Origin: Dehalococcoidia bacterium
Lineage (GTDB): Bacteria; Chloroflexota; Dehalococcoidia; DSTF01; WHTK01
Assembly: GCA_035574915.1 (NCBI GenBank)
Contig: DATLYJ010000020.1
Location: forward strand, 1-57,425
Direction of reading: 5' to 3'
Length of the DNA: 57,425 bases
Part shown: positions 20,029-23,323 of the stretch, piece after piece
Layout: every line of letters starts with the position of its first letter
Numbering within the stretch: the first letter of the stretch is position 1
Program-made: the position numbers and the translations under genes
The notes under the pieces: generated by a model
What the model saw: only the letters and a program-made list of their open reading frames with translations
Databases searched by the model: none
What the model was told of the DNA's origin: nothing

Positions 20029-21192
20029 TCAGCCTCCCGCGGTCGTGACGCCGGTAGGCGGCCCTACGCGCCGCAGCTGCTCCTCCGGCCCGAACACCAT
20101 CAGCCGGTCGCCCAGCGCCAGGCGGGTGCTGGGCGCCGGGCCGACTATGAAAGTGCCGCGCTCGCTCCGCACCGCGAGGACGACCAGGTCCGGCGCGCTC
20201 GCACACACTTCGCCTATCGTCCGGCCCTGCAGCCCCGAGTCTTTGTCGACGCCAAACTCGCCGAGCACTCCTGGCCCCTGCGAGCCCAGGGAGACGATGT
20301 CCATGAAGTCCAGCAGGATCGGCTGCAGCGCTGAGAGCGCCAGTCGCCGCCCACCCATCTGGTAGGGAGAGACGATGTGGTCGGCGCCTGCCTGCAGCAG
20401 CTTCTTCTCGTTCGACGCCGAGGCGACCCTGGCAACCACGCGGACGTCCGGCCGCAGCATCTTCGCCGTCAGCGTGATGTATGTATTGCCAGCGTCCGAG
20501 TCCAGAGCGGCGATGAGCGACGCGCAGCGTTCGATCCCGGCTCTCTTCAGCGTTTCTTCCTGCGTCGCGTCTCCCTGAAGCACCAGGTAGCCCTCGGCGC
20601 GGGCGCGTTCCAGGGCCTCGGCGCTGAGGTCCACGACCACGAATGGCGCCTGCCGCTGCTTGAACTCCAGGGCGATCTCCTCGCCCACCCGTCCGAAGCC
20701 GCAGATGATGTGGTGGTCCTTCAGGTGTTCCACCTGGATCTTCATCCTCCGCTCGCCGAAAAGCTGCCGCAGGTCGCCCTCGATTATCGTGGAGACCAGC
20801 GCCGTCAGGATATAGAACGACGTCCCGACGCCCACGAACAGGACGACCATGGTGAACGCCATGCCGGTCCGGCTCAACGGCTGCACTTCGCGATAGCCCA
20901 CGGTAGTGAGCGTGATCACGGTCATGTAGAGGGCATCAAGGAATGACCAGCCCTCGATGATCATGTAGCCGCCGGTGGCGAACACGAGGATGACCCCGAG
21001 CGCCAGCAATCCGACCAGCACGCGGCCGTATGCCTGAGCCGCCGCCCTGTACTCCTTCACGAGCGTATTGTGGCGTCGCGCGGCGCTAGCGGGCCAGCGC
21101 TGCGCATCATCCGTGTTGTCGTCGTCCGAAAGCCGGGCGGACGCTCGTCCGCCAGAGGCCGGCGCCCTAATCGGCCAGGGTCCAGCGGCCAT
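20029..21192 (-). CDS. Two-helix K+ channel with RCK (TrkA-N/TrkA-C) domains
   Basis: 387 residues if started at the ATG at 21192; a GTG at 21060 would remove 44 mostly polar residues and avoid overlap with the upstream gene. Two membrane helices (near 58-75 and 108-130) flank the pore LTTVGYREVQPLS, where GYRE replaces the canonical GYGD. The RCK domain begins HHIICGFGRVGEEIALEF (near 160-177), the NAD/nucleotide fold, with VVDLSAEALERARAEG near 188-203. A TrkA-C domain ends the protein. MthK-like channels gate by ligand binding to RCK rings. The start overlaps the caspase-like lipoprotein gene's end by 26 bases. Confidence 0.9.
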   Translation of the reverse strand: MAAGPWPIRAPASGGRASARLSDDDNTDDAQRWPASAARRHNTLVKEYRAAAQAYGRVLVGLLALGVILVFATGGYMIIEGWSFLDALYMTVITLTTVGYREVQPLSRTGMAFTMVVLFVGVGTSFYILTALVSTIIEGDLRQLFGERRMKIQVEHLKDHHIICGFGRVGEEIALEFKQRQAPFVVVDLSAEALERARAEGYLVLQGDATQEETLKRAGIERCASLIAALDSDAGNTYITLTAKMLRPDVRVVARVASASNEKKLLQAGADHIVSPYQMGGRRLALSALQPILLDFMDIVSLGSQGPGVLGEFGVDKDSGLQGRTIGEVCASAPDLVVLAVRSERGTFIVGPAPSTRLALGDRLMVFGPEEQLRRVGPPTGVTTAGG

Positions 21193-23323
21193 AGGGCCGC
21201 TCGATGGGGCCTCCTACCTCATGGACGGCATCCTCATACTCGTCCTGGGTAGGGGCGCGATTGCTGCTCAACTGGATCATCGAGCAGGCTGTGCTCTGCA
21301 GCCCCGTGACCGCGCGGCCGGAGGACCAGTACTCGTTCCAGCAGGCAGTCACCACGTTGAGGGCTCCCTGGAGCCGGTCAGGCCCGGCAGGAGGCCCGAA
21401 GCGCATGCGGTAAATGAGCACGACGGTCTGGTCCGCCATCCGGGGGTAGGCGATCCCGTTGCGCCCGTAGGCCCGGAGGCGCTCGATCTTCGTCCGCGCC
21501 GGGCGTTCCCGGCCGCCCGCTGCCTCCAGCCAGCCCTCATAGCGCGCCCACATCTGCCATGCGTTCCGCGCCGAACGGGCCTTGTCCGGCAGCAAGTCGA
21601 AGATGCGCATGGCGGCCTCGCTCGCGAACACGAGGTCCGGCGGCTGGTCCCAGCCGAAGTAGACGCGGGCGTCGAACGCCGCTTGCAGGGACTGGTTTGC
21701 CGCCGACGAGCAGGCATTCACGAAGACCAGGGCATCAGAGAAGTCCAGGCCCTTCTTCTCGCGCAGCAAGCGGAAGAAGTCGGCGGACACCCAGAGCTCG
21801 ATGAACCCGTTGATGTCCGTGTTGGCATAGATCGTGCGCCGGAAGTCCTGGTCCCCGGCGAGACCGGCTTCGCGAGCCACCTGGTCCCGGATGGCGTCCT
21901 GGAGCCTCTGAATGGACTCGTGGTCCAGTCGGCCGCTGCCAGCTATCCGCCGGCGGTCAGCCTCGTCAAGGGCGCCCATCTCGATCTTGAGGAGCCTGTC
22001 GTTCAGCTCGGCCCCGTGCGTGAGGAAGTAGAGTACGCCGTATTCGGTCGTCGTGAGCTTTCGCGTCAGTGTCAGCAGCGCCTCCAGGCCCGTCTCAACC
22101 CGGCGCCCGCCCTGCACCCGGCCCAGCACCGTGTCGAGGGTATAGCCGCCTTTCCTGAGGTCCTCGCTCAGGCACTCGATGTTCGACCCGGTCGTCTCCT
22201 TGAAGCCGGACCACATGCCGGCCACCTTCTTGTCCGCGCTCGTGTACACGGGCCCGGGATGGGGCACCTGGTAGAGCGGCGCGAAAAGGAGCGCCCTTCG
22301 CGCCGAGGCCGGCGGCGAATCGTCGCTCTTGATTGGCCGCGGCTGGTCGTTAGGGTTGTAACTCGGCACCAGGAACACGCCCGGCCGCGGCTGCAGGCCC
22401 TCGCGTCCCGGTTCCGCAAGGTTGGTCCCACCGACCCGCGCGATGCCGGTCGGATTCGACGGTAGTGCGGAGCATTCCGTAGCAGCGTACGTCGCCAGGA
22501 GGGTGGATGGCTCGCGTCGCGGCGGCTTCGCCGAGGCGTAGAGCTCGGGGTGCGGCGCGGCTGAGCCACGGCCGCCCGGCAGGGTCAGGGTGAAGCGCTC
22601 CGTGATCAGGTACTCATCCCGCCCGTCTCGATAGCGGATGGTGGCGTTGAGTCCGTTCGGGGAGAGCACCACGTCGCTGACGTTCGAGAAAGTGCGCGCC
22701 TTCGCCACGGCGGCCTTGACGGCATCCTCCCAGTTCTGGCCGCCGTTTACCGCGTCCAGGAAGGTCTTCATCGCGGCCGCGGTGGCGTATTTGTCGATGT
22801 CGTAGATCTGCCAGTCACCCTGCACGCCGAGCGTTACCCCGGCGGCTCCGGATGGTGCCGCGGTGCCCGCCGGCGCGGTCGTGCTCTGGGCCAGAGTGGC
22901 ATCAGTCTTGCGCCAGAGCGATGCCCCGGGGCCCTCCCCGAATATCTGGATGGGGATCTGAAGCTCGTCCCCACTAATCTTGAAGGGCTGGTCCTTCGCG
23001 GAAATCCCGAGGTCCCTCAGCTCGATGCTCATGCGGCCGCCGCGGACGCTCCAGGTGCCGCTGTCGCTCACCTCCTCGCCCGGACGCGTGGCGAGCATCG
23101 AAAGGGTCCCGTCCGGGTTCAGCGTGAGGAGCACCCTCGAATCCGCCCGCACCTGCGTGCCGCCGACGTCGCCGACCAGGGCGTACGTCCCCGCGAGGTC
23201 CGGCGCCTGGCCGCTGTCGCCACCGCCGCAGCCGCTCCAGCCCAGGGCCAGGACGAGCACGACCAGACCAGGGAGGGTTCTTGATCGACGGTCTGGCCTC
23301 AGGGTGCGCGACGGGGAATGCAT
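21167..23323 (-). CDS. Caspase-like (clan CD) lipoprotein
   Basis: 718 residues from the ATG at 23323. A basic start, a hydrophobic stretch (LPGLVVLVLALGW) and SGC at 30-32 give a lipoprotein signal, with Cys32 lipidated. Residues about 42-140 resemble a small lipocalin-like beta domain (LAGTYALVG, GTWSVRGGRMSIEL). A long middle region follows, then a caspase/CHAT-like half: His436 in LYFLTHGAEL and Cys538 in ALVFVNACSSAANQSL are spaced and set in motifs like the His-Cys dyad of clan CD peptidases. ARVYFGWDQPPD follows where CHAT proteins have a similar strand. It would act outside the cytoplasmic membrane. Substrate and role unknown. Overlaps the downstream channel gene. Confidence 0.78.
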   Translation of the reverse strand: MHSPSRTLRPDRRSRTLPGLVVLVLALGWSGCGGGDSGQAPDLAGTYALVGDVGGTQVRADSRVLLTLNPDGTLSMLATRPGEEVSDSGTWSVRGGRMSIELRDLGISAKDQPFKISGDELQIPIQIFGEGPGASLWRKTDATLAQSTTAPAGTAAPSGAAGVTLGVQGDWQIYDIDKYATAAAMKTFLDAVNGGQNWEDAVKAAVAKARTFSNVSDVVLSPNGLNATIRYRDGRDEYLITERFTLTLPGGRGSAAPHPELYASAKPPRREPSTLLATYAATECSALPSNPTGIARVGGTNLAEPGREGLQPRPGVFLVPSYNPNDQPRPIKSDDSPPASARRALLFAPLYQVPHPGPVYTSADKKVAGMWSGFKETTGSNIECLSEDLRKGGYTLDTVLGRVQGGRRVETGLEALLTLTRKLTTTEYGVLYFLTHGAELNDRLLKIEMGALDEADRRRIAGSGRLDHESIQRLQDAIRDQVAREAGLAGDQDFRRTIYANTDINGFIELWVSADFFRLLREKKGLDFSDALVFVNACSSAANQSLQAAFDARVYFGWDQPPDLVFASEAAMRIFDLLPDKARSARNAWQMWARYEGWLEAAGGRERPARTKIERLRAYGRNGIAYPRMADQTVVLIYRMRFGPPAGPDRLQGALNVVTACWNEYWSSGRAVTGLQSTACSMIQLSSNRAPTQDEYEDAVHEVGGPIERPYGRWTLAD

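Follow-up and report, generated by a model that had tools for sequence, protein, structure and literature searches.

A gene of a Dehalococcoidia bacterium is predicted to encode a lipoprotein in which a lipid anchor, a lipocalin-like barrel and a peptidase-like domain are joined, an architecture that is conserved in four proteins of one Dehalococcoidia order and has no curated family. By sequence and profile comparison, this protein groups with exported clan-CD-like proteins of Chloroflexota, a superfamily so far without a name, and it probably acts as an exported, lipid-anchored cysteine peptidase of clan CD type on an envelope or secreted protein. The gene lies within a 57,425-nt stretch of DNA (the window), where its features map as follows:

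21167..23323, minus strand: lipoprotein gene, 718 residues, stop codon included (open reading frame; three full-length homologues at 42-52% identity)
23231..23323, minus strand: lipoprotein signal peptide, residues 1-31 (4/4 proteins have a lipobox-type end after the hydrophobic core, here VLVLALGWSG)
23228..23230, minus strand: Cys32, predicted lipidated residue (invariant in 4/4 proteins; Lgt and LspA in the genome)
22904..23206, minus strand: lipocalin-like beta-barrel domain, about residues 40-140 (AF2 and Foldseek; weak Lipocalin_4/DUF5640 matches)
22589..22786, minus strand: small alpha-beta N-domain, about residues 180-245 (common to secreted Chloroflexota relatives; hhalign)
22472..22474, minus strand: Cys284, invariant, possible disulfide partner of Cys384 (four-protein alignment)
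21524..22297, minus strand: predicted clan-CD-like catalytic domain, about residues 343-600 (profile comparisons and secondary-structure order)
22172..22174, minus strand: Cys384, invariant (four-protein alignment)
22016..22018, minus strand: His436, predicted catalytic histidine, right after predicted strand 430-435 (48/48 homologues; aligns to the catalytic His block of C14)
21710..21712, minus strand: Cys538, predicted nucleophile, right after predicted strand 532-537 (48/48 homologues; in register with the CHAT and C25 cysteines)
21170..21523, minus strand: subfamily-specific C-terminal region, residues 601-718, with the end GRWTxAD (conserved in the 4 target-type proteins)
21341..21343, minus strand: Cys661, invariant, possible disulfide partner of Cys680 (four-protein alignment)
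21284..21286, minus strand: Cys680, invariant (four-protein alignment)

The N-terminal hydrophobic stretch ends in VLVLALGWSGC and fits at Cys32 a lipobox pattern of the PROSITE PS00013 type. All three homologues fit the same pattern, and the genome encodes both Lgt and LspA. The initial annotation of this DNA had described the product as a 718-residue lipoprotein; the reading frame, the signal peptide ending in a lipobox cysteine and the two genomic processing genes bear this out. A match to the model NF058595 (invert_tail; E 0.0044) was discarded, as it covered the signal peptide and a glycine run only. The three full-length homologues, which also answer the proposal to look for the architecture elsewhere, come from other genomes of the same Dehalococcoidia order, placing the target-type family in 4/18 genomes of that order; a fifth match within the order was left out, being limited to the signal peptide region. 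No additional full-length member emerged from a class-wide search with the full-length profile; its matches lay for the most part on signal peptides (positions about 10-90) and were set aside, except for one true distant homologue (G279, see below). Similarly, a profile of the catalytic half retrieved no further target-type members from 400 genomes sampled across the phylum, and a search of viral contigs found none of the family. The neighbourhoods of the gene and its homologues revealed no conserved partner: a K+ channel gene stands beside it in the window, and acyl-CoA and enoyl-CoA genes or a cysteine desulfurase gene at the homologues. The two-helix channel, with TrkA-N and TrkA-C, is encoded directly downstream on the same strand (window 20029-21192, minus); at its longest, the channel frame shares sequence with the end of the lipoprotein frame, and the channel is not conserved beside the homologues.

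AF2 models, run on four-row alignments, were mostly confident for residues 45-139 (block means 66-87), and Foldseek returned lipocalin-like matches to this segment, the best being 4qrl (probability 1.00, E 1.2e-3). Model and structure search thus agree on a lipocalin-type antiparallel beta-barrel, in keeping with the lipocalin-like domain proposed initially. The barrel shares its fold with the Lipocalin_4/DUF5640 domains of bacterial lipoproteins, to which 3/4 family members gave weak, below-threshold matches; unlike in those lipoproteins, it is fused to a peptidase-like domain. The small alpha-beta domain that follows is flanked by two linkers, one after the barrel and one before the catalytic half, and aligned in hhalign with secreted relatives at 87% probability (score 35.3 vs a shuffle maximum of 16.0). 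Residues 601-718 aligned with neither the transmembrane nor the secreted group of relatives.

Scans with Pfam and NCBIfam yielded no model covering the catalytic half above its cut-off. Peptidase_C14 (PF00656) did not match the 718-residue protein even at E 10, with none in the genome, and Peptidase_C25 (PF01364) did not match it either. For CHAT (PF12770), the family consensus scored 12.6 bits (E 0.09) against a curated cut-off of 24 bits, and the best E-value among relatives was 0.0033, again with no match above cut-off. Searches of PDB sequences with phmmer and hmmsearch returned chance matches only. His436 lies in VLYFLTHGAE and Cys538 in ALVFVNACSSAA, and the strict motif pair to which they conform (hydrophobic-[ST]HG followed by hydrophobic-x-C-[SRENQ]) did not occur in any of 20000 shuffles of the protein, a looser version occurring in 118/20000. 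Both residues are invariant in the 4/4 full-length proteins, are kept in 48/48 superfamily proteins and, in an alignment of 29 sequences, occupy two of the only six columns that never vary. The His436/Cys538 pair in clan-CD-type motifs that had been pointed out at the outset is therefore confirmed in the sequence, and the loss of the dyad in homologues that would have spoken against it was not seen. Beyond the lipid-bearing cysteine, each of the four mature proteins contains exactly five cysteines, all at aligned positions, so that four could pair and Cys538 would be left free.

Structural prediction of this half was less certain. The AF2 model averaged a pLDDT of 50.7, with residues 537-718 below 50; a PDB fold search with this low-confidence model gave no clan CD structure among the matches listed, and PLP lyases returned as fold matches were rejected (TM 0.13, meaningless at pLDDT 51). 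In predicted secondary structure, the elements run from strand 343 through helix 382, strand 395, helix 412, strand 430 leading to His436, a hairpin, strand 508 and helix 514 to strand 532 leading to Cys538. Along the chain, this order fits the caspase/haemoglobinase fold as defined in PMC4357240, a fold with parallel strands arranged 2-1-3-4, with His and then Cys predicted to close core strands 3 and 4, as in clan CD.

We further compared profiles with accepted clan CD families, relying on shuffles since pairwise hhalign E-values are not database-calibrated. The superfamily profile scored 40.4 against CHAT (shuffled maximum 21.4) and 44.1 against C25 (shuffled maximum 15.4), in both cases with the catalytic cysteine in register; the CHAT and C25 domains were drawn from the same class. 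Against C14, it stayed near background (18.9 vs 15.2). Direct matches of the lipoprotein were weaker: its Cys block aligned with CHAT less strongly than in the superfamily comparison, and its His block with C14 (29.7 vs 19.9 for shuffles). The secreted relatives matched CHAT at a probability of 88. Profile similarity to clan CD is thus carried by the superfamily, through CHAT and C25. Of the caspase/CHAT-type catalytic half suggested initially, the clan assignment holds at the profile level, but CHAT and C25 resemble it more closely than true caspases do. CHAT proteins share with this superfamily the predicted order of elements, a His after strand 3 and a Cys after strand 4; the lipoprotein differs from them in its sub-cut-off score, export and membrane anchoring, lack of a TPR partner domain, and an NAC motif and helical insert between the dyad residues. 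The C25 gingipains and PorU are likewise extracytoplasmic; here the differences are the missing Pfam match, the absence of a type 9 secretion architecture and the lipocalin-like domain found instead. With C14 caspases and metacaspases, only the His block is common, the superfamily as a whole not rising clearly above background. Metacaspases have an Asp before the catalytic Cys, which the lipoprotein lacks.

The distant class-wide match, G279, has 299 residues and a single helix at its N-terminus, and led to a family found in 38/393 genomes of the class. These transmembrane relatives, of about 300 residues, have a basic N-terminus and a single helix (a lipobox instead in a few), followed by the catalytic domain. 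Their profile in turn recovered secreted multidomain proteins (open frames of 337-1064 residues) from other Chloroflexota families. The catalytic half of the lipoprotein aligned with 32 anchored relatives at a score of 66.5 and a probability of 95.4 (maxima of 22.1 for shuffled and 16.2 for reversed sequences), and the protein aligned with the secreted relatives at 96.6 and 97.5 over residues 187-589, a span that includes the small alpha-beta domain and holds both dyad residues in register. In a tree, a well supported branch separates the target type from the transmembrane type, both on long stems. One relative of the transmembrane family, from another Chloroflexota family, sits within a large protein that has a long Thr/Pro-rich (TPT-type) stretch (L097; G506 C67). 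All recovered Chloroflexota relatives look exported, judging from an N-terminal helix, a lipobox or a signal-peptide-like start. The initial view that caspase-like proteins outside the cytoplasm are unusual, bacterial relatives being mainly cytoplasmic, was therefore overstated; by these predicted signals, extracytoplasmic location is the rule rather than the exception in this superfamily. Outside it, a survey reported that 15% of prokaryotic metacaspases have transmembrane helices and that many of these helices are probably signal peptides (PMC3501461), and clostripain is secreted (PMC11296011).

In the reading that we hold to be probable, Sec export and lipidation at Cys32 would leave the mature protein tethered to the cytoplasmic membrane and facing outwards, where two disulfides among Cys284, Cys384, Cys661 and Cys680 would stabilise it and leave Cys538 free. 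Activated by His436, Cys538 would cleave an envelope or secreted protein at a peptide bond. The barrel may bind a lipid-like ligand or part of the substrate, or may exert control by binding the peptidase itself. Against this reading stand the low-confidence model of the catalytic half with its fold search, the absence of a curated family match above cut-off, the near-background C14 score of the superfamily, the narrow spread within the order and the lack of a conserved neighbour that would indicate a substrate.

The transmembrane relatives have more informative gene surroundings. Exported proteins whose C-terminal tails run from VGG over a spacer and a helix to an Arg-rich end were encoded in 12/20 regions around these relatives vs 1/20 control regions, with controls taken from part of the same genomes; only tails with VGG or IGG were counted. 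Fifteen of the 18 tails lay at most 1 kb from the relative's gene on the same strand, often overlapping the enzyme gene, and when all same-strand neighbours were listed free of the VGG/IGG requirement, most helix-plus-basic tails still had VGG. Such tail proteins include those at L113 6384-7365 (minus), L125 9837-10485 and 12294-13083 (plus), L126 7745-9515 and 10865-13684 (plus), L128 10974-12979 (plus) and L129 3496-5851 (plus), among others. None of the NCBIfam sorting-tail models matched the VGG tails above its own cut-off, and the tails look like a sorting signal not described so far. A profile built from the tails found 7 to 28 matches per genome in six enzyme-bearing genomes, a count that is circular in part, as five of the six had contributed some of the training tails, and that includes some weaker matches lacking the VGG part. 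The highest number, 28, was found in G012 (e.g. L157, L168 and L178), although no training sequence came from that genome; so many tailed proteins would correspond to the many-to-one pattern typical of sortase substrates. An exception was G009, with seven VGG-tail matches and no enzyme found, where the genome may be incomplete, the enzyme diverged, or the case a counter-example. Together, these genomic data suggest that the transmembrane relatives and the VGG-tailed proteins form a caspase-like sortase system. Exosortase, rhombosortase, myxosortase and PorU systems likewise involve surface proteins with tripartite C-terminal tails, but here the enzyme would be of clan CD type with a single helix, the motif is VGG, and the link is seen for the relatives, not for the lipoprotein.

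It is rather doubtful that the lipoprotein is itself a maturation or sorting peptidase that clips, and perhaps transfers, envelope proteins through a non-VGG recognition tail. In favour of such a role are these operons of its relatives, the known sorting enzymes within clan CD (PorU of C25 and the GPI transamidase of C13) and other tripartite tails in the target-type genomes G000 and G015. Two of these tails, in the lipoprotein's own genome, G000, are at L164 and L175 (e.g. PPSTGDAG...FARR, with no VGG). Against such a role, the tail profile gave no match with a VGG part in that genome (best E 0.001, VGG part missing) and no matches in G007, nor in G001, G036, G073 and G046, and no conserved tail-bearing gene neighbours the lipoprotein gene. 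A function of the lipoprotein on VGG tails of its own genome is accordingly unsupported, and on present evidence the VGG sorting system does not extend to it. We regard as unlikely that the protein is a zymogen in which the barrel and the small alpha-beta domain serve as built-in inhibitors, with maturation by self-cleavage in the 246-342 linker. The barrel's Foldseek matches include the potempin 8ehc, and potempins are protease inhibitors. A long low-confidence linker does separate the domains, and clan CD enzymes are often self-regulated (PMC4357240). Yet the transmembrane relatives have neither barrel nor alpha-beta domain, so neither is required for the fold or the dyad, and the sole well conserved linker stretch, EPGREGL, is not known as a cleavage site. 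Least likely, and indeed improbable, is a binding or sensing lipoprotein with a clan-CD fold devoid of peptidase activity and a dyad kept for structure or ligand binding: the lipocalin-like ligand-binding domain, the fact that activity across the superfamily is a prediction and the pseudo-enzymes noted among prokaryotic caspase homologues in PMC6426788 would favour it, but pseudo-variants usually vary at the dyad, whereas here both residues persist in 48/48 proteins across groups that share little else.

The preferred reading, an envelope-facing peptidase, gives the caspase/gingipain clan an exported branch that no curated family covers, and this in a phylum where little is known of the biology of the cell surface. 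Literature searches on caspases in Dehalococcoidia, CHAT with gingipain in Chloroflexi, lipocalin with caspase-like domains and Chloroflexi sorting signals yielded no description of this family, and the combination of lipid anchor, lipocalin-like barrel and peptidase domain is likewise not described in the literature searched. We consider it quite conceivable, if somewhat short of probable, that the transmembrane branch of the superfamily is a sortase-like peptidase for VGG tails and the lipoprotein an offshoot devoted to other envelope proteins. If so, these bacteria would sort proteins with a clan CD enzyme that has a single helix, a design different from those of sortase, exosortase, rhombosortase and myxosortase; and if the operon link to VGG-tailed proteins reflects processing, it would make a new bacterial protein-sorting system directly testable.
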